Below, one piece after another: positions 7,110 through 29,107 of a stretch of 36,677 bases of DNA. Under the pieces are notes generated by a model, which was not told the origin of the DNA, did no database searches, and saw only the letters and a program-made list of their open reading frames with translations. This DNA comes from a virus. Where the stretch lies: IMG/VR virus record IMGVR_UViG_3300025030_000279, positions 1 through 36,677 of that record; one strand, written 5' to 3'. The translations under genes were made by a program, and so were the position numbers. Within the stretch, counting starts at the first letter, position 1; each line of letters begins with the position of its first letter.

Positions 7110-7724
7110 ATGGTAGTTACATACACAACGGCGAATGATGTCGGGAATAAATTGGGATTCCCCGCGTCGTATTTCACGACAATAAGCACGCCGACGCTTG
7201 CGCAAGTTGAGACGTTCATCAATCGCGCCGAGGATACGATCGATATCACTACCGGTCACGCTTGGCGGTCTGTGACTGTCGCCAATGAGTACGTGCGACC
7301 GAGTTCTATTTATCGCATGGGTACTGGCATACGCTTGAAACTACAGCATCGGTCAGTGTCAGCGATTACAAAGCTCGAGATATGGGACGGTTCGAATTGG
7401 ATCGATTACGTCACCACGAAGACCGAGGGTCGGAATGACGACTATTGGTATGATGCAAGTAACGGCCTTGTCTTTCTCGTCTCCACGATGCGCATCTATC
7501 CTCACGGCGTGCGCGTATCGTACACATACGGCGAGTCTGCTGTTCCAGGAGACATCAACGACTGCGCCGCCATGATGGTTGCACTCTCCATTCTCAACGC
7601 GCCTGAGTTTAACGCCGTCCTCTTTACGCAAGCCGGAGAGACTACTCCGATGCGCGACGGCAACAAGAAAATATGGCGTGATATGATAGATACGACGCTC
7701 TACAATCGCGCCGAGTTCCAGTAA
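7110..7724 (+). CDS. Head-tail connector/adaptor protein (gp6/gp15-like)
   Basis: A 204-residue protein. The N-terminal helical part (TANDVGNKLGF; LAQVETFINRAEDTIDITTG) matches the helical bundle of phage head-completion adaptors such as HK97 gp6 and SPP1 gp15. The middle is beta-rich (LEIWDGSNW..Y), and the C-terminus is helical (INDCAAMMVALSIL). In known viruses such proteins bind beneath the portal. It is first in its operon, read from a probable leaderless transcript. Of two ATGs (7106, 7110), only 7110 opens the long frame. Confidence 0.7.
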   Translation: MVVTYTTANDVGNKLGFPASYFTTISTPTLAQVETFINRAEDTIDITTGHAWRSVTVANEYVRPSSIYRMGTGIRLKLQHRSVSAITKLEIWDGSNWIDYVTTKTEGRNDDYWYDASNGLVFLVSTMRIYPHGVRVSYTYGESAVPGDINDCAAMMVALSILNAPEFNAVLFTQAGETTPMRDGNKKIWRDMIDTTLYNRAEFQ

Positions 7725-8301: not shown

Positions 8302-9207
8302 ATGGTATGCATAAGCAATGTTGGCAACAAATACATCGCGGCCTACGAGACTGTGTATGGTACAAGTCCGAGCCCGTTCACTTCCGTTGACTTAGGACAC
8401 ATTCAGAAGGTCAGCATCAGTGAGGAAGATAACGTCGATAAGGGCTCGAGCCTGAATTCTGGTCACCTCGCGGCAACGTTTGAAGATGGCCTCTACTGGT
8501 GCAATGTGACCATTGAAACACAGGTGAGCAAAGCATCACTTCCAAATCTTCTGAAAGCGTCCCTCGGGGCGCGCGTTGATGCGACAGATTACACCATCAC
8601 CAGTGACCCCGCGCTCGTATCGATGAGCATGAAATTCTTCTATCAGGGCACGAAAATAGGACTCCTCAATGGCCTGGTCGTTAAGGATTTCGAGCTCAGT
8701 GTCGCGAAGGGCGAGATGGTAAGCATGACGCTTAACTGTGTTGCTAAGAAGCTCAGCAAGGCGACAGAGACGATTGCACCCTCGACAAACACCGATACGA
8801 AATTCAGTTTCATGGACGTTTCGGCGACCATTGGTGGTGTCGTTACGGTCCTTAACACCATCTCCATTAACGGAAATTGGAACGTCATAGACGACGAGGG
8901 ACGCGGCATCGAGGCCGTAAGCGCCGGTGATAGGCGGCTCTTACAGACAGTCTTGCGCCACCGCCTTGATGTGAGCGGATCGTACGAGGCTGAGGTCAAT
9001 GATACGCAGGAATTCGGATACACCGAGGAGCGCACGAACGCCGCCCTTGTCGTGACCATCTCGCGTAGTACAGATAACGCCCACGTCTTCACTATGACGA
9101 ATACCCGAAGCAACAAGCGGGGCATCGACATGAGCACAGACAATACGAAGAAGATGATCACCTATGACTACGAGGCGTTGGACCTCGGGGTCACAGGAGA
9201 CTTGTAG
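8302..9207 (+). CDS. Major tail tube protein
   Basis: A 301-residue protein with the tail-tube pattern: YIAAYETVYGTSPSPFTSVD and LGHIQKVSISEEDN at the N-terminus, an immunoglobulin-like beta sandwich in the middle (DFELSVAKGEMVSMTLNCVA), and a C-terminal strand series. Position after tail completion and before the tail chaperones is exactly as expected. AGAGGT precedes ATG 8302. Multiple copies should form the tube that conducts DNA. The length is within the range seen for archaeal and bacterial siphovirus tube proteins that carry an extra domain. Confidence 0.78.
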   Translation: MVCISNVGNKYIAAYETVYGTSPSPFTSVDLGHIQKVSISEEDNVDKGSSLNSGHLAATFEDGLYWCNVTIETQVSKASLPNLLKASLGARVDATDYTITSDPALVSMSMKFFYQGTKIGLLNGLVVKDFELSVAKGEMVSMTLNCVAKKLSKATETIAPSTNTDTKFSFMDVSATIGGVVTVLNTISINGNWNVIDDEGRGIEAVSAGDRRLLQTVLRHRLDVSGSYEAEVNDTQEFGYTEERTNAALVVTISRSTDNAHVFTMTNTRSNKRGIDMSTDNTKKMITYDYEALDLGVTGDL

Positions 9208-9221
9208 AGTGAGGGATACAC

Positions 9222-9533
9222 ATGACGGCGGAAACAGTACAATACATCGATGGGACAACGGTAACGGTGGAGGTCAACAGACTCGGCTTTCGACGGTCAA
9301 CACAGATTGCGCGAAAACACATTCCGATTAACAGCCTGACGGTATCGAAGGCTGACAATAGCATGACCATCACCGGGAATATAGACCTCGCCGGAATCTC
9401 AGAGAGTTGCCTCGCAACAATTCCTGGGCTCGATCTGGATAAGCTCGATGGGAAAGATGCGGCGAGACTGTACAAGACATATTTCGAGGCTGACGTTATG
9501 GGAAGCCTCGGGCAATCAGCAAACCCAAACTAG
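9222..9533 (+). CDS. Tail assembly chaperone, G-type
   Basis: A 103-residue protein between tail tube and tape measure, the position of lambda gpG homologues. It has a beta-rich N-terminus (TVTVEVNRLGFRRS) and a helical C-terminal part with SLGQSANPN before the stop TAG 9531-9533. GAGGGATACAC precedes ATG 9222. Just before the stop is the slippery heptamer A AAC CCA (9521-9527). A fraction of ribosomes is expected to shift to the -1 frame and continue into the T-type part. The chaperone would coat the tape measure during tail assembly and is normally absent from virions. Confidence 0.75.
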   Translation: MTAETVQYIDGTTVTVEVNRLGFRRSTQIARKHIPINSLTVSKADNSMTITGNIDLAGISESCLATIPGLDLDKLDGKDAARLYKTYFEADVMGSLGQSANPN

Positions 9534-9564
9534 AAGCGGAGCTCCGGCGCGTGCTGGATGCTCC
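9521..9564 (+). promoter_or_regulatory. Programmed -1 ribosomal frameshift signal
   Basis: The heptamer A-AAC-CCA at 9521-9527 fits X-XXY-YYZ exactly in the zero frame; both codons can re-pair as AAA CCC in -1. Starting 11 nt after it, 9538-9564 can fold into an 11-bp stem: GGAGC pairs with GCTCC, one bulged T, then TCCGGC pairs with GCTGGA (one G-U) around the tetraloop GCGT. Slippery site, spacer and stem-loop together are the classic signal for G-GT tail chaperones. Confidence 0.72.
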
Positions 9565-9763
9565 TAAAGCAATAGAACATGTAAGTCCATTGGCATCGGA
9601 AGTGATAAAATATTCGAACCTCCTCCTCATCGGGTTTAAAGTCGACCTAGACGACTTGCCCGTGAATGTGGTGCACGGAATCGAGTATTTCAGCATGCGA
9701 CGTAGAGCAAAGGAAGAAGAAGAGCGTTTCAAAGCGCTTGCAAGGATGCTAGGAGCAAAGTGA
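9527..9763 (+). CDS. Tail assembly chaperone, T-type extension in -1 frame
   Basis: The -1 frame is open from 9494 and, after slippage at 9521-9527, reads KLEAELRRVLDAPKAIEHV onward to TGA 9761-9763. The result is a GT fusion of about 180 residues. The 78-residue extension is helical and ends in a charged segment (RRRAKEEEERFKALARML). A separate start at GTG 9551 is possible, but it sits within the predicted stem-loop, and only GGAG at 9538-9541, itself in the stem, could serve it. In lambda the T domain recruits tail tube subunits to the tape measure-chaperone complex. Confidence 0.68.
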   Translation, partial: KLEAELRRVLDAPKAIEHVSPLASEVIKYSNLLLIGFKVDLDDLPVNVVHGIEYFSMRRRAKEEEERFKALARMLGAK

Positions 9764-10917
9764 AGGTGATTAAAATCGCAGAGATGATTTGGAGAATAGG
9801 ATTTGATGCCAATGAGGCGAAGCGTGCAGGGAAAGAATTCAAATCGAGCGCTGGCGGAACAACGGGTGGCGGTAAGAAATCCGGCAGTGGTGCATTCGCC
9901 GGTGGCCTTATCGGTGGCCTCCTGGGCGGAATCCTTTCAAGCGTTCGACAACTTGTCGAGCCCATTCAGGCGATGTCCACTCTGCTCGTCGCCGCGCTCT
10001 TCCCGATCTTCAAACCCTTCCTCATTCTCTTCTTGAAAGTTGGTTTGATGCTGTTTAAATTTTTCAGTACGATTGCCAACGGATACGAGAAATTGGCTGG
10101 CGATGATAGTTCCACAGCCAAAGATATTACAACGGGAGCGGGTGCAGTAACTGGTGGTGTGATAGGTGCAGCCCTTGGTGGCCCATGGGGTGCGGGAATC
10201 GGTGCCGCTATCGGTGCCGCCATTGGTGGAATAATTCCCAGTGCTTTCAAAGGCATAGGGAATATTCTGACGATTGCTGCAGCATGGCTCGATGAGCTCT
10301 TGGGCGTGTTTGGAATCGACATGGACGCGGTACGCAGGGCTGTTGTCACTTTCATCTATGAGACCATTCCGGAACTATGGGACAAAGCCGTTGAGGCGAT
10401 GAGTGGGGTCTGGGAATATTTGGCGGGTCTCGGCCAGTGGATGTGGGATAAAGCCGTCGCAGTTCTTACAGTAGTCTGGGAATATTTGGCGGGTCTCGGC
10501 CAGTGGATGTGGGACGGACTTGTCGCCATGTTCACACTCGCGTGGGAAGCGGTGAGTGGTATCGGTCAATGGATATTTGATACACTCTCGTCTATTATGA
10601 AATCAGGATTTAGCGTGCTTAGCGGTATAGGGAATCTTGTATGGAAGTATGTCAAATCCTTATTAAAAATAGGAAAGGATGATAAGAAGAGCGGATCGGA
10701 TTCATCAATCAACGACGCCATCATCACGCCGAACGGTGACATTATCCGTACAAGCCCGTCAGATTACCTTATAGCGACGAAGAATCCACAGTCGCTCGGT
10801 GGACAGTCGAGGGCGTCATCCATCAATGTGAGCATCAATGGTGGTCTCATTACCGAAGATGTTGCGCGGAAGATAGGGCAAATCATCCTGAAAGAAGTAA
10901 AGCGGAGTGGTGCATAA
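9760..10917 (+). CDS. Tail tape measure protein
   Basis: A 385-residue protein starting at GTG 9760, overlapping the previous stop, with AGGAG 5 bases upstream. It has the tape-measure traits: glycine-rich hydrophobic stretches (GGLIGGLLGGIL; a hydrophobic block LLVAALFPIFKPFLILFL; AALGGPWGAGIGAAIGAAIG) and long helices. Residues 217-304 hold four 22-residue repeats with Trp and Gly at fixed places (VWEYLAGLGQWMWD). If the usual relation of about 1.5 angstrom per residue holds, the tail would be short, roughly 55-60 nm. It is followed, in overlap, by tail tip genes. ATG 9784 is a possible alternative start. Confidence 0.82.
   Translation: MKVIKIAEMIWRIGFDANEAKRAGKEFKSSAGGTTGGGKKSGSGAFAGGLIGGLLGGILSSVRQLVEPIQAMSTLLVAALFPIFKPFLILFLKVGLMLFKFFSTIANGYEKLAGDDSSTAKDITTGAGAVTGGVIGAALGGPWGAGIGAAIGAAIGGIIPSAFKGIGNILTIAAAWLDELLGVFGIDMDAVRRAVVTFIYETIPELWDKAVEAMSGVWEYLAGLGQWMWDKAVAVLTVVWEYLAGLGQWMWDGLVAMFTLAWEAVSGIGQWIFDTLSSIMKSGFSVLSGIGNLVWKYVKSLLKIGKDDKKSGSDSSINDAIITPNGDIIRTSPSDYLIATKNPQSLGGQSRASSINVSINGGLITEDVARKIGQIILKEVKRSGA
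10408..10514 (+). repeat. Tandem 66-bp repeat inside tape measure gene
   Basis: A 41-bp block (10408-10448) recurs exactly at 10474-10514, a period of 66 bp or 22 codons. Two further diverged copies follow in the protein (residues 261-282 and 283-304). The nearly perfect nucleotide identity of the first two copies suggests a recent duplication that lengthened the tape measure by one unit. Confidence 0.85.
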
Positions 10918-17375: not shown

Positions 17376-18651
17376 GTTCAACCACCTCGAAATCCTGTGA
17401 TAGTAACTCTCTGCGTCGTTTGTAGTGCTTGGAAAGATGCTTCGGTCCCAAATCCACGAAATCGATAATTATCGCGGCGTGCCGAGACGCCTTCAACCGT
17501 AAGACGCGCCCCACGCGCTGCGTAAGCTGGATACTCGACTTCCCGCCAGCCGCGAGAATAACCACGTCGAGCTCGGGGAGATCGATCCCCTCATTGAAAA
17601 TGTTGCTTGCCACGATGCAGTTATACTCTGAAAGGTTCTTATAGCGATCGAGGCTTTGACCGTGGCAGAAAATCTTCTTCTCTATGCCAGACGCATCGTA
17701 GAGATACTGGCCGTGCTCAATTTGCGTGACGAGCACAAGGACCTTCCTCCCTTTGGCAACATACTGAGCCATTGCGTCGAGGATCATCTTATTGCGTGAG
17801 AAATTCTTAACGATATGCTTATCGTAGAGCTCAACGTAATTGTAGACGAAATCGCCCTGTGTATCAAACAGCGGCTTGTAGTAATGCACAACGGCATCCG
17901 AAAGATACCACTGCTCGATAAGGTCGCGGCGGCTAATCTGATACACAATAGGTCCGAGAGCGCCGAACATTCGCATGTCTTCGCCGTCTTCTCTTACAGG
18001 GCTAGCACTTAGGCCCACGATGATGCTGTCGGTCTTCGCGAACATCGAAAGATTATAGAGGCTTTTGGCGGCCACATGATGGCATTCGTCGAAGATGATA
18101 ATATCTGACGTTGCTACAAAGGTCGCGGCACGGGGATTTTGATAATTGATGATTCTGACATCGTCGTTCTCCCCGAGTTTTGATTCCCACATTTTCTTAA
18201 TGTCGAGCGTTGGAACAACGACAGTTGCTGTTCGATTGAGAATCTTGATATACCGCAATGCTGTGATGGTCTTGCCAGACCCGGTAGGCATACAAAGAAT
18301 TCCTCCTCTATGTTCAATGAGGGCGTCAATAGCGTCATTTTGATATTGTCGCAACTTCGGCGTATGCCAATGTTCGACAGAAGGTATTGTATATTCCCAT
18401 ATGTATTTATCATCCGGCGAGTATTCGCCCCACTGGCGCATAACATCATCGACAACATTCGCGAAGCCCCATGGGAACACACCCTTCTTAACCGAATAAA
18501 GCTTCACGACAGCCCATTCGGGGTGAGGCATATATTCGGCTCCTTTGCGAGTATAGGACATCTTCTGCAGAAGCATCCCAGCAAGCTTACCACCCGGGAT
18601 AGGGCCGATAACACCGTAATTTCCACGCTTTGTAATTTTATAAATAGTCAT
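17335..18651 (-). CDS. SF2 DNA helicase, XPB/UvsW-like
   Basis: A 438-residue helicase. After an N-terminal domain of about 90 residues come the Q-like LRQYQNDAI, motif I MPTGSGKT, motif II DECHH, motif III SASP, motif IV region VLVLVTQIEHGQYL, motif V region SNIFNEGIDLPELDVVI, and motif VI QRVGRVLR. This is the DExH set of XPB/RecG/UvsW-like double-strand translocases. Such viral enzymes act in recombination-dependent replication and fork remodelling. ATG 18651 is taken because GGTGGT lies just upstream; ATG 18663 is possible. A palindromic TATA box (18681-18688) inside the polB 3' end could give it a private promoter. Confidence 0.88.
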   Translation of the reverse strand: MTIYKITKRGNYGVIGPIPGGKLAGMLLQKMSYTRKGAEYMPHPEWAVVKLYSVKKGVFPWGFANVVDDVMRQWGEYSPDDKYIWEYTIPSVEHWHTPKLRQYQNDAIDALIEHRGGILCMPTGSGKTITALRYIKILNRTATVVVPTLDIKKMWESKLGENDDVRIINYQNPRAATFVATSDIIIFDECHHVAAKSLYNLSMFAKTDSIIVGLSASPVREDGEDMRMFGALGPIVYQISRRDLIEQWYLSDAVVHYYKPLFDTQGDFVYNYVELYDKHIVKNFSRNKMILDAMAQYVAKGRKVLVLVTQIEHGQYLYDASGIEKKIFCHGQSLDRYKNLSEYNCIVASNIFNEGIDLPELDVVILAAGGKSSIQLTQRVGRVLRLKASRHAAIIIDFVDLGPKHLSKHYKRRRELLSQDFEVVEHEQSGATLPSFFG

Positions 18652-20458
18652 TGAGACCACCATTTTTCGGAGTATTCGACTTTATAAATGGTTCTAATTC
18701 GTGCCACACTTTCGTCAGATCTAAATCGTCAACGCGCAGTTGAGCAGCGGCCTCTTCGACCGGGCAATACTTCCACGCCGTTCCTATCTTCCCGAGACGT
18801 TTATTCTTCACCAGTGCTATGACGCCGCTCTTCTTATCGAGATACGCCTCACTGATTTGCTTCTGGATACAATTCGCTCCGGCTTTATACATCTCGTAAC
18901 GGTTCACCTTGTAGTTCTGCGCAACGAGCGCGACATCGTTTTGTAACTCGTCGCGAATCCATCGGTCAACATCTTTCTTCTCGAACTTGCCAGAAAGATT
19001 CTCGACGATAAAAGCCTTCATGTACTTCTCAAAAATGAGAGGACCGAGTTTCGACGCGTTGCTCTTGATAAGCGGTAAGCCCATGACTGTGACTTCGCCA
19101 TTCGCCACGTAAACGTAATTCTTCTTGAGCGTTTTCTCGTCGTCATCCTTCTTTACGAACATGATGTAATCCAGATAATTTTCGATGTTGATGGTGAATG
19201 TCTCCTGTGGGAATGGGACGTACGCATTGATGATACCGACAACCTCCTCAAGGTCGTTAAGAACATCCTCACGCGTCTTAGGTATCAACGCCTTTGCAAA
19301 ATTAGAATCTGTGTCTCCTGCAATGATGCTATACCCACGCTTTGTGAGCTCTCGCTCCATAAGTTCATTAATCTGTTGCCCAAGATAGCAGCAGTCGGAA
19401 CCACAATTCTCTGTGTGCAGGCTTGCGAAGACGTCGCTATAACTAGCACCGAAGATACTATTCAAGAGGATTTTGTAGGCGTGCACAAGCGGGTTGTGTT
19501 TATCGATCTTCTTGAGTCGCATACGTTCTTTAAACTTCTCCATCATGTCCACCCCTAACGGGTTTGCGACAAGCGTGTCGTACCATCCAGCGACTTTGAA
19601 AACTTCATTACCGTGCCAGGCCCCGGGAGTGTTTGGAGGCACTTCACTGAATAAGTTGAATGATGCGAAGATATGCGGATAAAGACTTCCCACGTCGAGA
19701 TACCATACGCCCCACTCTTCGGAAACTCGTGGTTCGATAACACGTCCGCCCTTATCGCGCTTTCCAGAGTAGGCGGCGGCATAGATTTCTTCGCGATGAA
19801 GAATCTCGCACGCGTACATATACCCGATGCTTGCGATACTCGACGTGAGCCATCGCCACTTCTTCGCGTTCTTCTCGCCGACGAATTTGGAGAAGGGCAA
19901 CCAGAAGTTATAGATTTTATCAAACAATAATTTCGTAACCTTAATATCTCCGAGGAGGTATTTTTTAATGTCTTCGGTCTCCTCGGGTGTCCACGCATCC
20001 TTCTTGAAGAGCGTATAATCGATGTCGCCTTTGAGCGTTTCAAACTTTAGTATCTCTGCAATAGCGCGCAATGATTTTGATGGGAAATCAAGATTCATCA
20101 GGTTTGCTTTCCCTATCTTTTTGAAACCGTTCGCACCGTCATTCCCGAACAGAAACACGTAGGTGTCGATAGATTTTATCCAGCGGTCATAGACGATTTT
20201 ATTCTTCACATTCTTCAATATCGGAAGATCGAAATCGTCACCGTTGAACGTCACAATGACTTTGTGCTGTCCGATATACTTCTTTATCTTCTCTTCATTT
20301 CCTCTGAATTCAACGGCGTCGTAGCGGTCGTAAGCATAGGAATAGAACCCAATCCACTTGATCCTGGCGTCGTTGCGGTACTGTATCGACTCCTTGTCGA
20401 TATCATAGTCGCTCCAGCATTCGATATCGAGGATGAGCACCTCTTTAAGATTGGTCAT
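18638..20458 (-). CDS. polB: Family B DNA polymerase
   Basis: A compact 606-residue polymerase. Exonuclease motifs: Exo I D11-I-E13, Exo II N72-G-D-D-F-D77, Exo III Y167...D171. Polymerase motifs: A, D255-VGSLYP; B, K329-x3-N333-SIFG; C, G381-D-T-D-S with D382 and D384; and KKNYVY near residue 440. All catalytic acids are present, so both proofreading and synthesis should work. It is shorter than cellular archaeal PolB (about 780 residues), lacking much of the N-terminal domain. AAGGAGGAC precedes ATG 20458. It should work with the virus-coded clamp and clamp loader. Its start overlaps the split methyltransferase C-part. Confidence 0.95.
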   Translation of the reverse strand: MTNLKEVLILDIECWSDYDIDKESIQYRNDARIKWIGFYSYAYDRYDAVEFRGNEEKIKKYIGQHKVIVTFNGDDFDLPILKNVKNKIVYDRWIKSIDTYVFLFGNDGANGFKKIGKANLMNLDFPSKSLRAIAEILKFETLKGDIDYTLFKKDAWTPEETEDIKKYLLGDIKVTKLLFDKIYNFWLPFSKFVGEKNAKKWRWLTSSIASIGYMYACEILHREEIYAAAYSGKRDKGGRVIEPRVSEEWGVWYLDVGSLYPHIFASFNLFSEVPPNTPGAWHGNEVFKVAGWYDTLVANPLGVDMMEKFKERMRLKKIDKHNPLVHAYKILLNSIFGASYSDVFASLHTENCGSDCCYLGQQINELMERELTKRGYSIIAGDTDSNFAKALIPKTREDVLNDLEEVVGIINAYVPFPQETFTINIENYLDYIMFVKKDDDEKTLKKNYVYVANGEVTVMGLPLIKSNASKLGPLIFEKYMKAFIVENLSGKFEKKDVDRWIRDELQNDVALVAQNYKVNRYEMYKAGANCIQKQISEAYLDKKSGVIALVKNKRLGKIGTAWKYCPVEEAAAQLRVDDLDLTKVWHELEPFIKSNTPKNGGLNDYL

Positions 20459-20915
20459 TTAGTCCTCCTTCCGCTTCTTTAATTGCTTCGCCGATTGCTT
20501 GCGCCCATTGCGGTACAACTGCGTTTCCGAGTCGCTTAATTCGGTCCACCCGATGGGAAACCCCATCAGCCACTCCACAAATGCCGGATTGAGTCGTGAT
20601 GACGCCAGTGGCGTCTCTTTGTAGTGCCGGACGTTGCCACAGCCCTTCTGCGTGGGTGTCGGCATTATCGCTAACCCCAGATGGGTTCCTCCCTGCGCGT
20701 ACTTGCTCCGCCCCTTGAAATCCCTCACCACCGGTGTCGGAACCATCAGGACCGCCCGAGAGAGAGAGTGCTTGCTCTCCCCTACTTGCTGACTGCTCGC
20801 CAGGTTGTCCGTAAAGCAATCCGCTACCGTTGGGGTAGGCAATGATTGCGATTCGGTCTCGCCGGTGATACGCACCAACGGCGGTAACTTGTAGATTATC
20901 GTTTCTATTTGCCAT
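20445..20915 (-). CDS. Cytosine-C5 DNA methyltransferase, C-terminal part (split gene)
   Basis: A 156-residue product holds the C-terminal motifs of a C5-methyltransferase. It begins with a complete motif VIII (VGAYHRRDRIAIIAYPNGSG), continues through a variable segment without a clear target-recognition fold, and ends with VADGVSHRVDRIKRLGNAVV and PQWAQAIGEAI (motif X, GNAVVP). It has its own ATG 20915, overlapping the HNH stop, and is in the same frame as the N-part. With the N-part it supplies all essential motifs, so a two-subunit enzyme like M.AquI is plausible. Its stop lies 14 bases inside polB. Confidence 0.8.
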   Translation of the reverse strand: MANRNDNLQVTAVGAYHRRDRIAIIAYPNGSGLLYGQPGEQSASRGEQALSLSGGPDGSDTGGEGFQGAEQVRAGRNPSGVSDNADTHAEGLWQRPALQRDATGVITTQSGICGVADGVSHRVDRIKRLGNAVVPQWAQAIGEAIKEAEGGLNDQS

Positions 20916-21868
20916 CCAAATCCTTCTCCATCTGTTGAGAGATAATATACCCATCGTCCTCTTTGAACGTCAGAAGTCCTTTTCTGTAGAGGTTGAGCGC
21001 TATCTGTTCGAGTTGCTTGTGTATCTGATTGTGCTTTCTCCTTGAAAGAACACACAAGTTCTTTGCGTGGTTGTTCTGTCTGTTCCCGTCGATATGATGT
21101 ACCACTTCTCCCTTCTGAAGTGTTCGACCATACTTCTGCTCTGCTATCAGTGTGTGCCTCGACACTCGTTTCCCTTTGGAGTTGAAGCAACTCTCGTAAG
21201 TCGACTTCTGTCTGAACCTTGAAGAAGTGTCTATGTGCAATTCCTTCATTCGCGCGTGCAATCTTCTCCACCCTACTCCTAAAGTCTTCGCGGCTTTCCT
21301 GAGAGATTTCTGTTCTCTCCAAGTTGTCAATAGCAATTCTTTTGAAAGTGTCTCTATCGATATAATTTTTCTCAAAGTTCACACCTCGTTCCGATAATAA
21401 CAATTCTATCTCTTCGATGGGGGGCACCGACAGCACTTGCAGGGAAACAATGATACTCTGCATCATACCCGATCGCGGCAAGGTCGATGAGTACGGTATC
21501 GAGTCCCCGTTGAGTGAGCGCTGCCACGTTTTCAGCGAAGACGATGCGGGGTCGTAGAACGCTAATCGCTCTGAGGTAATGCTTCCAGAGGCCAGAACGA
21601 CTCCCCGATATGCCAACTCTCTTTCCAGCATTGCTGATGTCTTGGCAGGGGAATCCTCCGGTGAGCACGTCGATTCTCGGTACACTCGCAAAATCGATCT
21701 CCGTAATGTCGCCATATATCGTGGCGTCGGGCCAGTACTTCCGAAGGAAGGCTTGCGCGTGTGGGTCGCACTCGACGAACCAGACTGTCTCGAATCCTCC
21801 GGCTCTTTCGAGGCCGAGTTCGATGCCGCCAGTGCCGCTGAATAAGCTTCCGACTCTAAGTGTTCCAT
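20459..21868 (-). CDS. 469-codon alternate frame overlapping the split methyltransferase (uncertain coding)
   Basis: A frame open for 469 codons starts 4 nt after the methyltransferase N-part start and ends 1 nt before polB, overlapping the N-part, the HNH gene and the C-part in a different frame. Its ends carry sequences I recall from phage proteins of unknown function: LAFYDPASSSLKTWQRSLNG and TLPRSGMMQ near the start, and PTPVVRDFKG, then LNPAFVEWLMGFPIGWTEL at the end. The last string is the direct out-of-frame reading of the methyltransferase VADGV...RVDRIK motif. It may therefore be an overprinted gene or a constraint-driven shadow. The methyltransferase and HNH frames have clear catalytic motifs and are preferred. 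Confidence 0.3.
   Translation of the reverse strand: MEHLESEAYSAALAASNSASKEPEDSRQSGSSSATHTRKPSFGSTGPTPRYMATLRRSILRVYRESTCSPEDSPAKTSAMLERELAYRGVVLASGSITSERLAFYDPASSSLKTWQRSLNGDSIPYSSTLPRSGMMQSIIVSLQVLSVPPIEEIELLLSERGVNFEKNYIDRDTFKRIAIDNLERTEISQESREDFRSRVEKIARANEGIAHRHFFKVQTEVDLRELLQLQRETSVEAHTDSRAEVWSNTSEGRSGTSYRREQTEQPRKELVCSFKEKAQSDTQATRTDSAQPLQKRTSDVQRGRWVYYLSTDGEGFGWQIETIIYKLPPLVRITGETESQSLPTPTVADCFTDNLASSQQVGESKHSLSRAVLMVPTPVVRDFKGRSKYAQGGTHLGLAIMPTPTQKGCGNVRHYKETPLASSRLNPAFVEWLMGFPIGWTELSDSETQLYRNGRKQSAKQLKKRKED
20905..21375 (-). CDS. HNH homing endonuclease inserted in methyltransferase gene
   Basis: A 156-residue free-standing HNH endonuclease. An N-terminal helix-turn-helix-like segment (SLRKAAKTLGVGWRRLHARM) precedes a domain with KYGRTLQKGEVVHHIDGNRQ, then NNHAKNLCVLSRRKHNQIH, the H-N-H motif of phage endonucleases. 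The start is TTG 21375, with a well placed GAGGTG upstream; the preceding methyltransferase stop overlaps it (TTGA). The gene sits exactly between the two methyltransferase parts and uses a third reading frame. It is probably a selfish element that cuts uninterrupted copies of the methyltransferase gene. Confidence 0.85.
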   Translation of the reverse strand: MRKIISIETLSKELLLTTWREQKSLRKAAKTLGVGWRRLHARMKELHIDTSSRFRQKSTYESCFNSKGKRVSRHTLIAEQKYGRTLQKGEVVHHIDGNRQNNHAKNLCVLSRRKHNQIHKQLEQIALNLYRKGLLTFKEDDGYIISQQMEKDLDGK

Positions 21869-21872
21869 TCAT
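21372..21872 (-). CDS. Cytosine-C5 DNA methyltransferase, N-terminal part (split gene)
   Basis: A 166-residue product with motif I (VGSLFSGTGGIELGL), the acidic motif II/III region (ECDPHAQAFL...GDITEID), motif IV GGFPCQDIS with the catalytic Cys76, motif VI AENV (residues 113-116) and motif VIII VGAPHRRDRI. It stops six residues after motif VIII (GTRCEL). ATG 21872 follows GGTGAGG; ATG 21884 overlapping the upstream stop is an alternative. It lacks motifs IX and X, which the gene at 20445-20915 supplies. The enzyme would protect viral DNA from host restriction. Confidence 0.85.
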   Translation of the reverse strand: MNGTLRVGSLFSGTGGIELGLERAGGFETVWFVECDPHAQAFLRKYWPDATIYGDITEIDFASVPRIDVLTGGFPCQDISNAGKRVGISGSRSGLWKHYLRAISVLRPRIVFAENVAALTQRGLDTVLIDLAAIGYDAEYHCFPASAVGAPHRRDRIVIIGTRCEL

Positions 21873-21883
21873 ATCCCTCACCA

Positions 21884-22594
21884 TCAGATGAATTTACTCA
21901 TATTGTTTTGGTTCTTTTGTGTTGCTGTCCTCGTGTTCGACATCTCGACAAATTTCGGATTTATCTCACATCCAATAAATTTTCTACCGGTTTGTACCGC
22001 AGCCACGCCAGTAGTTCCCGAACCCATGAAGGGGTCGAAAACAACACCACCAATCGGGCATGAATTCTCAATAAACCGTCTGATAAGTTCGACAGGTTTC
22101 TGATTCGGATGAATGTTTTCTTCACCGCCAATATTCACATCAAACACCTTTTTATAATTTTGCAATTTTCGTGAGCCATCGAAATACACCCCTGGACTAC
22201 GAAGGAAAATAATATATTCCAACTCTGGACAGTACGAACTGTTCTTTGCAGGAATAGGATTCGTTTTTCTAATACAGAGAATGTCAAAGTGTAGCCCCCC
22301 CCTAACAGCCTCCGTAAGATACTTTGGAACCAATGTCTTATTACAGAAGAAATATGCGTTGACCTTGTCGCCCATCATACTAAGCATCGGCGGGATATAT
22401 TTATCAAAATCGAAGTGGTTCGTTTCAATGTCGATGATGTTTTGATATTTAACTTCACCGCGCCCAATACGATGGATTCCCCCACCCATCGCCTGAAATT
22501 CATATGGTGGATCACTAACTATTAAATCTACTTTTCCGTCGAACGATTTGATAAATTCGAGAGCGTCAACGTGGTGTGTTTTATTCGTCTCCAT
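21884..22594 (-). CDS. DNA adenine-N6/cytosine-N4 methyltransferase
   Basis: A 236-residue methyltransferase with the catalytic motif IV D28-PPY near the N-terminus, a central recognition region, HPNQKPVEL, and the AdoMet-binding motif I DPFMGSGTTGVAA near the C-terminus. That order (IV before I) marks the beta class. DPPY favours adenine-N6 modification, though N4-cytosine cannot be excluded. ATG 22594 follows GGTGA; GTG 22603 is less likely. No nuclease partner is next to it, so it is an orphan enzyme, probably for protection against host restriction. Its stop overlaps the next possible start. Confidence 0.9.
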   Translation of the reverse strand: METNKTHHVDALEFIKSFDGKVDLIVSDPPYEFQAMGGGIHRIGRGEVKYQNIIDIETNHFDFDKYIPPMLSMMGDKVNAYFFCNKTLVPKYLTEAVRGGLHFDILCIRKTNPIPAKNSSYCPELEYIIFLRSPGVYFDGSRKLQNYKKVFDVNIGGEENIHPNQKPVELIRRFIENSCPIGGVVFDPFMGSGTTGVAAVQTGRKFIGCEINPKFVEMSNTRTATQKNQNNMSKFI

Positions 22595-22599
22595 CTCAC

Positions 22600-22893
22600 T
22601 CACCGCATTGCTCCTATCTGTCGAAAGAAGCTCGTCTGCCCGTGTAGAATAGCGTCGATATCTCGCATAGGTAGCTTTGTCGTGTCGCGCAGATATGCCT
22701 TCATCACGTCACTATTGTAGCCGACAGCTTTGAGCGTCTTGAGAGCATTGGCTACCCGCTCGAGCTTCTGCTCCAGTTCTATCGCCGGATCGCTTTTTTC
22801 AAGAATCTTGATATCACCGCGCTCTGCCGATCTACGCAATGTGTTACTCCAACTCTGTGCCTCGTCTCCTTGTGTTTCTATAACGTATCTCAT
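22600..22893 (-). CDS. Hypothetical helical protein, 97 aa
   Basis: GGAGGAG precedes ATG 22893, which overlaps the stop of the upstream zinc-finger gene (ATGA). The protein is largely helical: a coiled coil (AIELEQKLERVANALKTLKA) followed by VMKAYLRDTTKLPMRDIDAI. No cysteines and no membrane segment. It lies between clamp-loader genes and methyltransferases, so a replication or DNA-binding accessory role is possible. No family recognised. Confidence 0.6.
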   Translation of the reverse strand: MRYVIETQGDEAQSWSNTLRRSAERGDIKILEKSDPAIELEQKLERVANALKTLKAVGYNSDVMKAYLRDTTKLPMRDIDAILHGQTSFFRQIGAMR

Positions 22894-23063
22894 AAGTACT
22901 CCTCCAGTGTTGTTGTCGGTTCAGTGTGTTCAATCTCTCGAATAGCGCGCCGCACATCTTTCAGTGTGATAACGTTATTCCTCTTTGCACAGTTCATACC
23001 GCATCCGCGCTGAACGGATTCAGCGGCACGAAGCGCCCGATTGCAGTACTTACATGAAGCCAT
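22890..23063 (-). CDS. Small zinc-finger protein, DUF6011-like, 57 aa
   Basis: ATG 23063 has GAGGG upstream. The product begins MASCKYCNRALRAAESVQRG and continues with CGMNCAKR, giving C4-x2-C7 and two further cysteines around a GxG turn. This is the pattern I associate with DUF6011-type zinc fingers in phage genes. The C-terminus is a charged helix (LKDVRRAIREIEHTE). It overlaps genes on both sides. Probably a small DNA- or protein-binding adaptor. Confidence 0.68.
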   Translation of the reverse strand: MASCKYCNRALRAAESVQRGCGMNCAKRNNVITLKDVRRAIREIEHTEPTTTLEEYL

Positions 23064-23511
23064 CGAGCCCTCGCGGTTTGGGTTTGTCTGCAATGAATTT
23101 GTACTTCGTTGCCTTGTCATATGCCACCCCGAGGGTCTTGCATTCCTTGTCGCTGAATCCTATCTTACGGTTCACCTCTTGGATATCAATGAGGTGTGTG
23201 ACCGTCTTGTTCTTCTCGTACTCCGCGCTCGACCATCGATAGTACTGCATGGCCTTCTCCTTGAAAAGGTCGTCATACGCGCTCGATTCGGCCTTTGTCC
23301 TCTTCGGATACTTGAAAAAGCCACCCTTACAGTTTACGGCAAGGAGGCTTATTACAATCTCCGGGCTTACTTTGAAAAATAAAAAATCAATATTCGAGCA
23401 CGCCTGTAGGTTTGACTCCTTCCCACTCATCCACCGAAGGAGTGGATAGGCAAACTTAGGGTCGACCTCTGTGAGTCTACCTGCGCAGAGCGATTTCCAA
23501 CTGTTGAACAT
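23050..23511 (-). CDS. Putative clamp-loader small partner (T4 gp62-like)
   Basis: A 153-residue protein directly downstream of the clamp-loader ATPase, in the order clamp, ATPase, this gene, as T4 genes 45-44-62. Segments LLRWMSGKESNLQACSNID, VSPEIVISLLAVNC, KGGFFKYPKRTKAES and EKAMQYYRWSSAEYEKN fit my recollection of the gp62 layout (start helix with NRxxS, LL pair, KRxxKW-like turn, YYxxS helix). T4 gp62 itself is diverged, so the call depends on synteny plus weak pattern. ATG 23511 has GGAGG only 3 nt upstream; TTG 23529 is an alternative. It overlaps the next gene by 14 bases. Confidence 0.5.
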   Translation of the reverse strand: MFNSWKSLCAGRLTEVDPKFAYPLLRWMSGKESNLQACSNIDFLFFKVSPEIVISLLAVNCKGGFFKYPKRTKAESSAYDDLFKEKAMQYYRWSSAEYEKNKTVTHLIDIQEVNRKIGFSDKECKTLGVAYDKATKYKFIADKPKPRGLDGFM

Positions 23512-23587
23512 GCGCCTCCAAGTCTTCAATCCGTTCGAGCAGATGCTTTTCGATGTGGTTGATCATATCTGTTTGTGTCAGTTTCAT
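23477..23587 (-). CDS. Tiny coiled-coil protein, 36 aa
   Basis: ATG 23587 overlaps the clamp-loader stop (ATGA). The 36-codon frame gives a heptad-patterned peptide ([20 protein letters not shown]). It overlaps the start of the gp62-like gene. Coupled starts at both ends make translation believable, but its short length leaves doubt. It may help pair subunits of the clamp loader or serve only to couple translation. Confidence 0.4.
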
Positions 23588-24483
23588 TTCAACACCGCCA
23601 TAGTCTTGAGAAGGAAGTTCTCCACGATGATTTCCTTGCTGATGACGAAGTTAACCTTACTCACTGCGTCGGCCAGATTGTTCACGATCTGTGTGAATAC
23701 TGGGCCGGGCATCTGCTTCTTCACGATACAGAGGTCGACGATGTACGCGTGATACTCGTCGAGGAATACGTCGTATTCAACGTTCCCGTCAAGTAAAACT
23801 TGGCGGGCATCGATGAAGTTTTGTGCCTTTAGGAGACCATGGATAGTCTCTGGAAGCATCGATTCCTTATTCAAGTCCGACGGCTCTATCTGACGTCCGA
23901 GCTCATGAAGACGTTGTAATTGATTGATAGCCTTACGAACATCGCCATTACAACGCTTCGCTATCTCACAGAGTTCTACCGGCCCAATACGTACGCCTTC
24001 AGCGGCCACGATACGGTCAAGATACTTCGCTATGCTCTCACTGTCTGTCTCGAACTTGAAGACGGTAAATCGACTCTTGAGCGGCTCGATGATTTTGTTC
24101 TCATAGTTCGCCGTGGCGATAAACCGGCAGTTACTATGGTACGTCTCCATCATGTTCCTAAGACTCGTCTGCGCGTCCACAGTCAGTGCATCACACTCGT
24201 CGAGAAAGACGATTTTGACACCACCATTATGGCTCTTGGTCATTGCGAAGTTTTTGACCTTATCGCGGATCGTCTGAATTCCCCGCTCATCGGAAGCGTT
24301 CAATGTCAGTGTCTCTGCACCAGTCTTCGCAATGATTATCTTCGCCGTTGTCGTCTTCCCCGTTCCTGGTTTGCCAATAAAGAGAAAATGAGGAAGGTTG
24401 TCGAGGGAATTCTTAATCCCATCGGCAAGTCCCATAACATCTGCGAACTCCTTCGGTCGATACTTTTCGTTCCAGATAGCCAT
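23584..24483 (-). CDS. Clamp-loader ATPase, RFC small subunit (T4 gp44-like)
   Basis: A 299-residue AAA+ protein beginning [17 protein letters not shown], the RFC signature. Walker A is G37-KPGTGKT44, Walker B FLDECD (D95-E96), sensor 1 in ATANYENK, and the arginine finger lies in KSRF (residues 136-139; the cellular form is SRC). The C-terminal helical domain follows. It opens the sliding clamp in an ATP-dependent way together with a partner, probably the gene just downstream. GAGGTG precedes ATG 24483. The clamp gene is 9 bases upstream. Confidence 0.93.
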
Positions 24484-24491
24484 GACGCACC

Positions 24492-25181
24492 TCAGTCATC
24501 GCTCACTTGGAGCGGAGCGGCAACGTATTGCACGCTATATTCTGGCGTTACCATCTTGAACATGACCGGATAATCGGTCTTCATACCGAATTCCACGGTG
24601 TTCTCAAGACATGAAAGTACATCGTTGACAGCATCGCCAAGGTGTACGACAGCGTTCGGTAGTGTCGTCGCGATCGTATCTGTTACGGTATCGAACGATT
24701 TACCACCCGTTGTGATATAGAGCTTCCCCTCCTCGACACGGAACTGTGTTTTCGTAGAGTCAACGATTTTTTTATTCTTCACGATGCTACGAAAGACGTC
24801 TGACGGCATGGTGACCGTGGCCTCCCATGTTCCCTTCGTCGTGGTCGTAAGCGCGTTATCTACGAAATCGGCGTCAGATAAGACATAATCAACCTGCTTC
24901 GTCGCATTGAAAATACTCAGCTTGTTCTTGTTGATCTGTATCTCAACGACCCCGGTGAAGAGGTTCAAGAGCTGTGAGAACATCCGCATATCCTTGATAT
25001 ACCATGATTGGTTCTCGCCGTCAACCGCGTTGAGAGTCGCGTACGCCGCCACGGTATTATCGATGCTACGATTGTACGCCCACATGCGGCCGTTCTCGAT
25101 GTGCACCGCAGCCGTTACTATGGCGTTGTTAAGCGTGGCTTTCGCCAAAAAAGGGGAGAGTCTTGATATGTCGATTTTCAT
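24492..25181 (-). CDS. Sliding clamp (PCNA/gp45-like)
   Basis: A 229-residue protein, close in size to T4 gp45 (228) and shorter than cellular archaeal PCNA. Two-domain clamp pattern: an N-terminal repeat with [20 protein letters not shown] and [19 protein letters not shown], and a C-terminal [20 protein letters not shown], the closing strands typical of PCNA-fold clamps. The neighbouring RFC-like ATPase confirms the role. It should give the viral PolB processivity. GGATGGTGA precedes ATG 25181. Confidence 0.82.
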
Positions 25182-25195
25182 TGTTCACCATCCGT

Positions 25196-25708
25196 TTATA
25201 CGAGTTTGACGTCGTAGAGGCGCTGTTCCTTCTTCGCGAGTTTTACATCCTCTTGGTATTTCACAGCGTCCTCCTGGTTGACGAAGTCCATCAGTTTCAT
25301 GAGGTTCGGGATTCTTTCGGTTGCATGGCCGCCATTCATGTTCCTCTTGATACTGACCTTCGCGCCCGTGAAGGTTCTATTATGCTCCTTTGCATACTTC
25401 ACAAGCACTCCGTCCTTACCGAAGAGCTTAAAGTAGAGCTCCCAGTTCGATACTGTGAAGATGCCGTTCACGCAGTGGATGTCGTAGCGTTTGACTTGGC
25501 CGTCCTTCTGCTTGACACCGATGTCGAACTCTTGGCCTTCGGTCGTCTTCCCGCGCGTCTTGTCGTTGCGGGCTATCTTTATGACCTCGAGGATCACCGT
25601 CTCGCCGACCTCTGGGTTCTTGATGTACGATTCGCCTGAGAAATCATCAAGACTCAAACCCGCGTCGATGTCCTGGGCGTTGTCAAAGTTTATTTGTTCG
25701 TCTGCCAT
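25196..25708 (-). CDS. Putative single-stranded DNA-binding protein
   Basis: A 170-residue protein at the head of the clamp operon. An acidic N-terminus precedes a beta-rich core (VGETVILEVIKIARNDKTRG; QKDGQVKRYDIHCVNGIFTV) that reads like an OB fold, then helical sequence with LKLMDFVNQEDAVKYQEDV. Position next to clamp genes and OB-like strands suggest an SSB, but no diagnostic motif is visible. GAGGAGG precedes ATG 25708, and a TATA box lies at 25784-25777. Confidence 0.5.
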   Translation of the reverse strand: MADEQINFDNAQDIDAGLSLDDFSGESYIKNPEVGETVILEVIKIARNDKTRGKTTEGQEFDIGVKQKDGQVKRYDIHCVNGIFTVSNWELYFKLFGKDGVLVKYAKEHNRTFTGAKVSIKRNMNGGHATERIPNLMKLMDFVNQEDAVKYQEDVKLAKKEQRLYDVKLV

Positions 25709-25753
25709 ATGGTTACCTCCTCAATATCCACCATCTGTGGGTGTGTGTTGAGT

Positions 25754-25784
25754 GTACTTTTTCTTTAGCATACTAATATATAAA
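25754..25784 (-). promoter_or_regulatory. Promoter of the clamp/clamp-loader operon
   Basis: Minus-strand ACATTTATATATT contains TTTATATA at 25784-25777. RNA would start near 25754, giving a leader of about 45 nt with GAGGAGGTAACC before ATG 25708. The box overlaps the 3' end of the preceding tiny Cys-rich gene, so this marks the start of a new transcription unit. Confidence 0.65.
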
Positions 25785-25786
25785 TG

Positions 25787-25897
25787 TTATCTTTTTATAA
25801 TTTTATAATTCTTCCACCAGTGCTGAACGCAGAGCCCCCCAAGGGCCGCATCAAGCCTACACGGTTCGCCGCACTTAGTGGTCGCGGAGCATTTCAT
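25787..25897 (-). CDS. Tiny zinc-finger protein, 36 aa (DUF5763-like)
   Basis: AAGGAG precedes ATG 25897, which overlaps the upstream stop (ATGA). The peptide begins MKCSATTKCGEPCRLDAALG and continues GLCVQHWW, so it has four cysteines and a His. C-x-A/S-x-T-x-x-G-x-P-C...C-x-x-H is the pattern of small zinc fingers found in many phage and archaeal proteins. A basic tail (YKIIKR) follows. It ends at the promoter of the clamp operon. Confidence 0.62.
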   Translation of the reverse strand: MKCSATTKCGEPCRLDAALGGLCVQHWWKNYKIIKR

Positions 25898-26190
25898 AGA
25901 TTCAACTCCTTCAAGATGCCATCGCGGTACTTTCTAATGCGTTCGTCTTTCTTACAAATATGGTTGTCCAGATATGCAGTCACCACTTCCTTCACTCGCT
26001 GCTTATCGCGACAGTGCTCTTGTACATCGTCAATGCTTATACATGGACCGAACGCGCCACAATTACTGCATCCCGCATCAACTTTGTGTTTCAGACTCGG
26101 ATATTGTTCTTCGAATGGTGTTGGTATATACGACGCTCCAGTTGGAACTCCTTCTTCGGTGCTGTCAAGTTGTTCGTCAAACGATGTCAT
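25894..26190 (-). CDS. Hypothetical protein with Cys cluster, 98 aa
   Basis: AGGAG precedes ATG 26190, which overlaps the stop of the upstream gene (ATGA). The product has an acidic N-terminus (TSFDEQLDSTEEGVPTG), then cysteines in GCSNCGAFGPCISIDDVQEH followed by another Cys, perhaps a metal site, and a charged helical end (KDERIRKYRDGILKELNL). It ends with the same ELNL peptide as its neighbour because both share a repeated ribosome-binding segment. Confidence 0.58.
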   Translation of the reverse strand: MTSFDEQLDSTEEGVPTGASYIPTPFEEQYPSLKHKVDAGCSNCGAFGPCISIDDVQEHCRDKQRVKEVVTAYLDNHICKKDERIRKYRDGILKELNL

Positions 26191-26435
26191 AGGTTCAACT
26201 CCTTCATTTTTCGGCAAGCAGGACATAACGGCGGGCGTTCGTTATCATATGTTGGAATTTCACACGTGCATAACTCCCGCATTGCCTTTCTCACGCGCGA
26301 TAATTCGTGCCTACGAATCTCATTCAACAACACCATAGCATCCTCTTTTGTTGTCGCGGTCTGTAGTGCCAGGACTATTTGCAAGTTCACTTCTTCGTTG
26401 CTCATCTTTAACTCGTAATCAGTTAGATACGCCAT
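26187..26435 (-). CDS. Small zinc-binding protein, 82 aa
   Basis: GGGAGGT precedes ATG 26435. A helical N-terminus (NEEVNLQIVLALQTATTKED) is followed by a Cys cluster, LCTCEIP and LCPACRK, giving C-x-C and C-x2-C as a probable zinc ribbon. The end reads KMKELNL; the 20 bp around this stop recur, with one mismatch, at the end of the next gene. Part of the chain of small coupled genes. Confidence 0.6.
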   Translation of the reverse strand: MAYLTDYELKMSNEEVNLQIVLALQTATTKEDAMVLLNEIRRHELSRVRKAMRELCTCEIPTYDNERPPLCPACRKMKELNL

Positions 26436-26447
26436 AACATACCTCCC

Positions 26448-26651
26448 TTATTTAGCACAGTTCCGAAAATGTTTTTTATGCACCGGAAGCATTTTACCAA
26501 GGAATATTTCTTTATGATTACTATTTCCCATCGGTTCGCGACACATATGACAGATAACTCTATAGACGAACGGCTTCCTGTTTAGTTTCCACGCTGCGAA
26601 CTCTAGTGAATGTTTCTCCTCGACAAACTGTTTATAGAGATTAGTTGTCAT
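26448..26651 (-). CDS. Small zinc-binding protein, 67 aa
   Basis: ATG 26651 follows GGTGG with 5-nt spacing and overlaps the stop of the 38-residue gene upstream. The product has a helical start (NLYKQFVEEKHSLEFAAWKL) and the cluster VICHMCREPMGNSNHKE plus HKKHFRNC, a C-x2-C ... H ... H-x3-C arrangement like a treble-clef or C2H2-type finger. A longer frame to 26798 would overlap two upstream genes and is not preferred. Confidence 0.6.
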   Translation of the reverse strand: MTTNLYKQFVEEKHSLEFAAWKLNRKPFVYRVICHMCREPMGNSNHKEIFLGKMLPVHKKHFRNCAK

Positions 26652-26764
26652 CCGTCCCACCGTTTGTTCTTCGGGTTGTAATGCGCGCGATACGTCCATT
26701 CTGCGTTGAGAGCTCTCGTAAGCTCGTAGAGTTCCACTGTTGTCATAGTTTCGATAGACTTCAT
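26648..26764 (-). CDS. Tiny hypothetical protein, 38 aa
   Basis: GGAGGTG precedes ATG 26764, which overlaps the primase-helicase stop (ATGA). The peptide begins MKSIETMTTVELYELTRALN and ends YNPKNKRWDG. Its stop overlaps the next start. No family recognised; the good ribosome-binding site and coupled overlaps on both sides support translation. Confidence 0.5.
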   Translation of the reverse strand: MKSIETMTTVELYELTRALNAEWTYRAHYNPKNKRWDG

Positions 26765-28950
26765 GTCGACACCTCCGTTTCAAAACTAATAATGTCACTT
26801 GGCTTTGACTGCCGAGGGATTCTGAATTTGACTTTCTTCAGCACATATGTCGGATTCCCAAGTATCGCTATCCGCTTATAGATGCAGTTACTATTTGTGA
26901 ATCTGTAGATGGTCTTATTGTCCTCCTTCTCTAATCCTTTGCTCGAACAGTACTCGTCGTACGCGTCGATAACTTCATCACGCGTGAGCGTGTCCTGAGT
27001 GTCATCAGTCGTGACTATCTCATCGTACCAGAACCGCGCGTATGTATTGCTCTCGCTTTCCCATTTACGTTTGATCGTGTTTGTGTTCTGGTGTATTGTG
27101 AATCGTCGATTCTTCAAAAGCCGTTTCAAGCCTTCGAGAGACCAGTTCAAAAGCCCGCTCATCTCTTTATCCGTCGTTATCTTGGTGAATATATCCGTGT
27201 CTATTATTTTGTGGTGCGGTTCCGTTTTCTCTTCCGGCAAGACGAATTTATATGGAAAGTTGATCATGATCCACCGATCCCAGAATCCGTCGGTATTGTC
27301 ATGACTTGCTGGTAAGTCGTTACTCGCGAACACCATCTTGGCGTACGGCTTGAATGATATCTTGCTCTTGAACTTCCTGTCCGCGGTCATCTGGTCGCGG
27401 CCAACAATGCTTTTGAAATTCCCGGTGAACTCAAGCGCCTGCTTACTGATGTCCGGACTAAAATTTGCGTATTTGTTATGAAGCTCTATGAGGTTGAATC
27501 CGCCGTCCTCTATCGCTATGAGGCTGAGATTTGTGACGTTCTTCTCTCCGAGCATCTTTCCTAGTGTTGCAATAAGCTTCCCCTTGCCATTCCTTCCGCC
27601 ACCTAAGAACATAACGGCCTTCTCCATGAGCGCATCACGATAGAGAAGATACCCAGCGATTTCTTGTATCGTATCGACTTCCGATTGCGTCTCTACGATG
27701 TCGTGGATAAACGACAATATTTTTTCTGGGCGTGCCTGTGGATCGTAGAACACGGGGAGCTTCGTGAAGAAGCGGTAATCGCTATCGAAATTCATGAGTT
27801 CGAGCGTGTCGATGTTTAAGATGCCGTTTTGCACCGGTAGGAGGTGTACATCCTCATCGATGAAGAAGCGTTCTTTTTCTACATAGCTATCGACTGTTAT
27901 CTTATCGATGACCTTCTTCGCGAAATTGATATCGTAAAGCGGTCCTAAGATGCCGCGGATGTACTCGAGGACATATGTTTTTCCTTCTGGGATATAGATG
28001 CCTTCCTTGTAGATGTATATCTCGGTCTCTTTATCGTCGCGTATTGTTCTTACGTGGTACATCTTTATGAACTCTTCGGCGAGTATCTCTGCTGCGCGGT
28101 ACCGTTTTTTCTTGTCCGCGAAATTGATAAGGATGCTAGTGCGGGTATCGTTACTCATCCCCGCCATCTCTGCAAGCCGTTGTTTCGCATCGATGAATTC
28201 TATACCGTGAATCCATTGCATGAGGTGGAAAATGTTACCGGCTTTATAGCAGTGGAAACAATACCAGACGTTTTTCGTGAAGCTAAAGCACTTACCACCT
28301 TGCGATGTATGACCTAAAGGACACATACACGTGCTTCCTTCTACGGCGTTAATGCCGCTTTGCACGAGAATGTCACGGATGGTGATTTTGCTTTTTATCT
28401 GTACGCAGATGTCGTCGAAGTCGAATACTGCGGGTTTGATATCGGTTTTGTCCTCTTTCTCGTAGACGAGGAGATTATCATCGATGTTAAGGAGGATGGA
28501 TTTGAGGTAAGCATAGGGGAATGTTGCTATCTCCATGTCGTTGACAACGTCATAGGTCGATTGTGTGCTAAGAACGGAGTTTGGACCAACGACCATCTTT
28601 CCGGTTGCCTGGATGTCGGCGGCGCGTTCTCCGGCTTTAGTGCTCAGCGAAAAGCTTTTTGGAGCGTCGACGTCTACGTAGAAGTAGAAATGGTTGAGTT
28701 TCTTACCCGCTGTCCTGACCGTAAAGGTGTTCCGAAACTGTTCTATCTCGAGAAGTCGATCCTGGATGTGTTTCATGTCACAATCGACGACGACCAAACG
28801 GTTGAACCCTGTTGCTACTCCATAGGTGTTATCTCGTATTTCTTCCTGGTAGGGATAATTATGGGTGCTTGTCCAGGCCGATTCTATGGGAAATTTCCCA
28901 TTCGTCTTTATAAATCGGCAAGCACTAAGTTGCTTCGGAATTTGTACCAT
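26761..28950 (-). CDS. Primase-polymerase/SF3 helicase fusion (replication initiator)
   Basis: A 729-residue multidomain protein. Residues 1-160: archaeo-eukaryotic primase-polymerase domain with D56-x-D58 in VVVDCD and HFYFYVDVD. Residues 200-250: a zinc finger, C208-x-C210-x3-H214 and C231-x2-C234, followed by AGNIFHLMQWI, as in CHC2-type primase fingers. Residues 330-570: SF3/D5 helicase with Walker A GGGRNGKGK (450-458), motif C FASNDLP and the arginine in FWDRW (559). The C-terminus has a winged-helix-like segment. It would make primers and unwind DNA at the origin. ATG 28950 follows GGGTGG. It overlaps the RHH gene by 26 bases. Confidence 0.92.
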   Translation of the reverse strand: MVQIPKQLSACRFIKTNGKFPIESAWTSTHNYPYQEEIRDNTYGVATGFNRLVVVDCDMKHIQDRLLEIEQFRNTFTVRTAGKKLNHFYFYVDVDAPKSFSLSTKAGERAADIQATGKMVVGPNSVLSTQSTYDVVNDMEIATFPYAYLKSILLNIDDNLLVYEKEDKTDIKPAVFDFDDICVQIKSKITIRDILVQSGINAVEGSTCMCPLGHTSQGGKCFSFTKNVWYCFHCYKAGNIFHLMQWIHGIEFIDAKQRLAEMAGMSNDTRTSILINFADKKKRYRAAEILAEEFIKMYHVRTIRDDKETEIYIYKEGIYIPEGKTYVLEYIRGILGPLYDINFAKKVIDKITVDSYVEKERFFIDEDVHLLPVQNGILNIDTLELMNFDSDYRFFTKLPVFYDPQARPEKILSFIHDIVETQSEVDTIQEIAGYLLYRDALMEKAVMFLGGGRNGKGKLIATLGKMLGEKNVTNLSLIAIEDGGFNLIELHNKYANFSPDISKQALEFTGNFKSIVGRDQMTADRKFKSKISFKPYAKMVFASNDLPASHDNTDGFWDRWIMINFPYKFVLPEEKTEPHHKIIDTDIFTKITTDKEMSGLLNWSLEGLKRLLKNRRFTIHQNTNTIKRKWESESNTYARFWYDEIVTTDDTQDTLTRDEVIDAYDEYCSSKGLEKEDNKTIYRFTNSNCIYKRIAILGNPTYVLKKVKFRIPRQSKPSDIISFETEVST

Positions 28951-29107
28951 CGGAGCCACCCATTGCGCGCTGCACTTGCTTCACTTTGTCCCGGATCGAT
29001 TTGTTCACAAAATTCGACATTGATGGGTACTCTAACGGGTCGCCCGCTATGATTTGCTTCATTTGCTCCCAAAGATTTGGGTCGATGTCAATGCTTGTTA
29101 CTGGCAT
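28925..29107 (-). CDS. Ribbon-helix-helix regulator, 60 aa
   Basis: First gene of the minus-strand replication module. AGAGGT precedes ATG 29107. A strand (VTSIDIDPNLWEQMKQII) is followed by YPSMSNFVNKSIRDKVKQVQ, the ribbon-helix-helix layout with a Ser/Asn turn between helices. It faces another RHH gene (29383) across the intergenic region, suggesting a pair of repressors acting on the divergent promoters. Confidence 0.8.
   Translation of the reverse strand: MPVTSIDIDPNLWEQMKQIIAGDPLEYPSMSNFVNKSIRDKVKQVQRAMGGSDGTNSEAT

Follow-up and report, generated by a model that had tools for sequence, protein, structure and literature searches.

The genes G and T of the virus record analysed here, a stretch of 36,677 bases referred to as the window, are very probably connected by a -1 ribosomal frameshift. 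The slip most probably takes place at C CCA AAC, immediately before the stop codon of G, and the complete explanation, in which a minority of ribosomes would shift by -1 at this heptamer, stimulated by an RNA hairpin, to give a GT chaperone fusion, is also quite probable. There are two frames, a slip site that is conserved and bracketed, and homologues of T in the same phase. The features of the locus, all on the plus strand, are the following.

8302-9207, plus strand: gene for the tail tube protein, preceding G (Pfam Phage_tube_2, 5.8e-13; phrog_290, 2.3e-16)
9222-9533, plus strand: gene G, 0 frame, 103 aa; putative gpG-like tail assembly chaperone, from its open reading frame and homologues
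9521-9527, plus strand: heptamer A AAC CCA, found, not conserved, rejected as slip site
9524-9530, plus strand: most probable slippery heptamer, C CCA AAC, directly 5' of the G stop; the window and its four close relatives all have CCCAAA[C/T] and then a stop
9530-9763, plus strand: T region, to be read in the -1 frame once the ribosome has shifted, 77 aa and stop TGA, with same-phase homologues
9531-9533, plus strand: stop codon TAG of G, adjoining the heptamer
9538-9564, plus strand: probable stimulatory hairpin of 11 bp with one bulge and a GCGT loop, 7 nt 3' of C CCA AAC
9760-10917, plus strand: gene for the tape measure protein, following T (matches to several tape-measure PHROGs, 6.5e-8 for the best with a name); its GTG start overlaps the T stop

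In agreement with the earlier note, the open -1 frame spans 9494-9763, and as read from the sequence it encodes the peptide KPKLEAELRRVLDAP and continues as KLEAELRRVLDAP... A slip at 9524-9530 would most probably produce the junction peptide TYFEADVMGSLGQSANPNLEAELR, and the predicted GT fusion very probably has 180 aa, with the junction ...SANPN-LEAELR... The predicted structure of T consists entirely of helices (pLDDT 91.7), the first of them formed by residues 2-11.

Relatives were sought using the capsid, tail tube and T proteins as queries, which gave close ones (L010/L006, L002, L011 and L015/L024) and distant ones (L005, L007 and L028). Searches for close relatives in viral contigs with the G and T proteins taken one at a time produced no match, those with G and T alignments added L015 only, and a DNA-level search of phages with the window also gave no match. 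The G homologues are 63% (L010), 62% (L002), 52% (L015) and 36% (L011) identical to the window protein, and the T homologues of the same four viruses 50-67%. The earlier note had asked whether relatives carry the two frames fused or widely separated; T followed G in the -1 phase in every close virus, five of five with the window included. Amino-acid conservation of the T frame starts at the first codon after the slip site, and third-position changes are in excess along this frame in the relatives. The T frame has no ATG, GTG or TTG before codon 48 in L002, 39 in L011 and 34 in L015, in such a way that the full T could not be made by separate initiation in these three viruses. At the G-sized gene of vir519 (Methanofastidiosa) no such G/T pair was found.

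The shift had previously been placed at AAACCCA, in the phase A AAC CCA, and this heptamer is indeed present at 9521-9527, before the TAG of G. As the slip site it turned out to be one codon off, the conserved heptamer being C CCA AAC, which lies three bases downstream, is also in phase, shares four bases with the former and had been missed. When the conservation of AAACCCA was checked, it was kept in only one of the four close relatives (L002), the bases at its position being AGACCCA in L010, TAGCCCA in L011 and TAACCCA in L015. By contrast, CCCAAA[C/T] followed by a stop is invariant, the last codons of G being GCA AAC CCA AAC TAG in the window, GGA AAC CCA AAC TAG in L002, GGA GAC CCA AAC TGA in L010, GGT AGC CCA AAT TAG in L011 and GGT AAC CCA AAT TAG in L015. 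L011 and L015 have a stop of the -1 frame (TAG or TAA) immediately 5' of CCC, so that only C CCA AAU is usable there: the overlap is reduced to 10 nt, bounded by the site on both sides and containing only C CCA AAT and the stop. Heptamers of the type X XXY YYZ are infrequent in phase, with 22 cases in 8987 codon-pair positions (0.24%) of the other open reading frames of the window. In the distant relatives L005 (A AAA AAA before TAA) and L007 (A AAA AAC before TGA) the sequence of the heptamer is changed and its place is kept. In each of the eight viruses of the set (the five close ones, L005, L007 and L028) the stop follows directly on the site, as it also does in HCTV-2.

At 7119-7240, L028 carries a G/T-like pair that lacks an X XXY YYZ heptamer altogether and ends in GAT TTT TAA. 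A TGA of its -1 frame lies directly 5' of TTT, in such a way that only a one-tRNA (P-site) slip from TTT to TTT is possible, and the pair is a candidate for -1 slippage of a single tRNA at a stop. Four relatives have GGTGG, a Shine-Dalgarno-like motif, on the 5' side of the site; the window does not.

The stem described earlier at 9538-9564 was recovered as the minimum free energy fold, with a one-base bulge separating 6 bp from 5 bp, the tetraloop GCGT and -19.4 kcal/mol. Its distance of 7 nt from C CCA AAC falls within the roughly 5-9 nt expected of structures that stimulate X_XXY_YYZ frameshifts. Its significance was evaluated against a null model in which the T protein was held fixed and synonymous codons were redrawn; five sequence lengths were used for the null z-scores and three for control positions, the controls being given the same choice of lengths. 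For the first 34 nt of the downstream sequence a p of about 4e-4 was obtained in the window, with nothing significant at longer lengths, and none of 120 control coding positions matched the z-score of the site. Conservation of this stem was found only in part. A hairpin is present at the same place in L002 (7 nt after CCCAAAC, -13.2 kcal/mol, p 4e-4) and L010 (6 nt, -15.0 kcal/mol, p 2e-4), and L011 and L015 are without the short hairpin. Among the window, L002 and L010, four of the 11 consensus pairs are changed on both sides, and in L010 some of the apical pairs are disrupted.

Longer hairpins were detected in L015 (over 90 nt, z -3.7), L005 and L007 (at 90 nt, z -4.2 and -4.0), and one over 60 nt in L028 (z -4.6). 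Downstream structure was above the synonymous null in seven of the eight viruses, and in seven of eight at most 0.8% of random coding positions (120 per virus) reached the value of the site. The exception was L011, where no downstream structure above its null was detected at 34-120 nt and the site was unremarkable compared with control positions. Downstream RNA structure is apparently under selection, with its position conserved, and the type of stimulator appears to have turned over at a fixed place. Hairpins of about 70-90 nt, at 4008-4097 of L015, 4731-4850 of L005 and 18192-18281 of L007, replace the short one and start near the same distance.

We infer the slippage, its tandem nature (in the P and A sites) and its efficiency from these data, and the process would run as follows. 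Most ribosomes would finish G at the stop at 9531 and release the 103-aa chaperone. In a minority, tRNA-Pro on CCA and tRNA-Asn on AAC (9524-9530) would slip by -1 onto CCC AAA while the hairpin at 9538-9564, 7 nt downstream, holds the ribosome, and the slipped ribosomes would read CTA GAA and onwards to 9763, giving the fusion of 180 aa.

A shift at the heptamer of the earlier note, A AAC CCA, which the window and L002 have in phase, is very improbable: it is absent in L010, L011 and L015, and in the last two the -1 frame is closed at that point by TAG or TAA. Moreover, its A-site codon, a CCN, does not have at Z the A or U that high-level shifting generally needs (PMC4066793), and the stem would lie 10 nt from it, against 7 nt from C CCA AAC. 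A more serious alternative, although unlikely, is a one-tRNA slip in which tRNA-Asn would move from AAC to AAA with UAG in the A site awaiting the release factor. The stop adjoining the site in the eight viruses of the set argues for it, as does L028, whose sequence allows a single P-site slip only. However, a slip of this kind would leave unexplained that XXX is kept as CCC in five of five close viruses, the wobble C of the preceding codon included, and that L005 and L007 have a full heptamer, as tandem slippage would need, and tandem slippage is therefore favoured.

That T could be a separate gene, initiated independently or through coupled re-initiation, for instance at the GTG at 9551 that does exist in the window, is even less probable than a shift at A AAC CCA. 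This GTG sits inside the hairpin, conserved residues and most of the predicted helix 2-11 lie before it, and the T frames of L002, L011 and L015 show no ATG, GTG or TTG ahead of codons 48, 39 and 34. An indel introduced by assembly or sequencing, or decay of the gene, has only the metagenomic origin in its favour; such an explanation has a negligible probability and is refuted by the relatives, given that the same phase is found in five separate contigs with the T identity and the third-position excess described above.

The role of G and T as tail assembly chaperones was inferred from gene position and recoding, the order tail tube, G/GT and tape measure being that of gpG/gpGT-type chaperones. 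On the model of lambda gpG/gpGT, binding to the tape measure would fall to the G part and recruitment of the tail tube to the T part, at a fixed ratio. Comparison of the window G and T with PHROGs, Pfam and Foldseek gave no significant match, with chaperone-named proteins for G only at ranks 5 and 9 (E 0.2-0.3). Weak matches were found in relatives, to an XkdN-like protein for G of L007 (0.01) and to a tail assembly chaperone for T of L028 (0.011). Foldseek and VIA-align gave no clear fold for G or T, the best for G being 5ir0 with a Z of 5.4, in a range that is common by the scale of the tool.

The earlier note had considered the virus archaeal. Judging from its capsid and replication genes an archaeal host is likely rather than certain. 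The nearest annotated capsid proteins belong to haloarchaeal and Methanofastidiosa viruses, the closest being those of HCTV-1 (34%) and HVTV-1 (33%). The replication block at 18638-28959 (minus strand), with an RFC small subunit of archaeal type, a divergent B-family polymerase and a Prim-Pol/D5-type primase-helicase, likewise suggests such a host; the RFC small subunit scored 209 bits to its NCBIfam model, below the cutoff of 303. Searches in phages returned generic bacterial-phage matches only for RFC and primase, and no match for the polymerase. Profile searches of genome contigs with the T and capsid alignments detected no provirus. The terminase large subunit frame at 30129-32585 (818 aa) contains a LAGLIDADG endonuclease (Pfam LAGLIDADG_3), within what appears to be an intein interrupting the Walker A motif (GGAGGGK / ...VIVTHN / SFIG), the first residue of which, by eye, would be glycine, which is unusual. 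A frame of 469 aa at 20459-21868 (minus strand), overlapped by other long frames, gave no Pfam match.

Frameshifts of this kind are already known. HCTV-2 (Saparoviridae, haloarchaeal) shares with the window the order tail tube, G/GT and tape measure, a -1 shift, annotated as a joined chaperone CDS, and a heptamer, A_AAA_AAC, directly against the stop; it differs in the heptamer itself, in a larger G and in giving no signal for structure downstream (z -0.1 to +2.0). HCTV-1 and HVTV-1 (Druskaviridae) also have a -1 shift in their tail assembly chaperones with a joined CDS, but at G_GGA_AAC and G_GGA_AAG, 27 nt before the stop, and again no downstream structure signal was detected. Lambda gpG/gpGT resembles the window in its place before the tape measure, in a -1 shift near the end of G and in a minor fusion product, which suffices in the phage, and differs in host domain and heptamer, the stop abutting the latter in the window. 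The lambda heptamer is GGGAAAG. A tail-gene frameshift is conserved in dsDNA phages, according to Xu et al. 2004, cited in PMC5009743. The view that few archaeal cases are documented is fair with regard to experiments, with one confirmed cellular gene, fucA1, in addition to the halovirus reports (PMC8211752). For the use in question, however, PMC8211752 and PMC5009743 already report a -1 frameshift of this gene pair in HVTV-1, HCTV-1, HCTV-2 and HCTV-5, and one is predicted for the halovirus Hardycor1 at G GGA AAT (PMC7911831). Hardycor1, compared with the window by its published description, is alike in its predicted shift and a heptamer ending in AAU, and differs in having G instead of C as X.

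In a systematic study (PMC4066793) the best motifs for E. coli were V_VV.A_AA.R, and those for reticulocyte lysate D_DD.A_AA.H; C_CCA_AAY belongs to neither class, although C_CCA_AAG is highly shift-prone in E. coli. What is new here is a C_CCA_AAY site outside the most efficient classes and abutting the stop. Its conservation together with the stop could mean, as a tentative and rather doubtful proposal, that archaeal ribosomes combine a bacterial-like tolerance in the P site with a eukaryote-like one in the A site, or that termination at the adjacent stop forms part of the signal. In this group of viruses the site is conserved and tightly bracketed, heptamer and stimulator vary naturally, and a role in setting the ratio of the two products is plausible; such variants would serve as ready reporters for bacterial versus eukaryotic slip rules in archaeal ribosomes.
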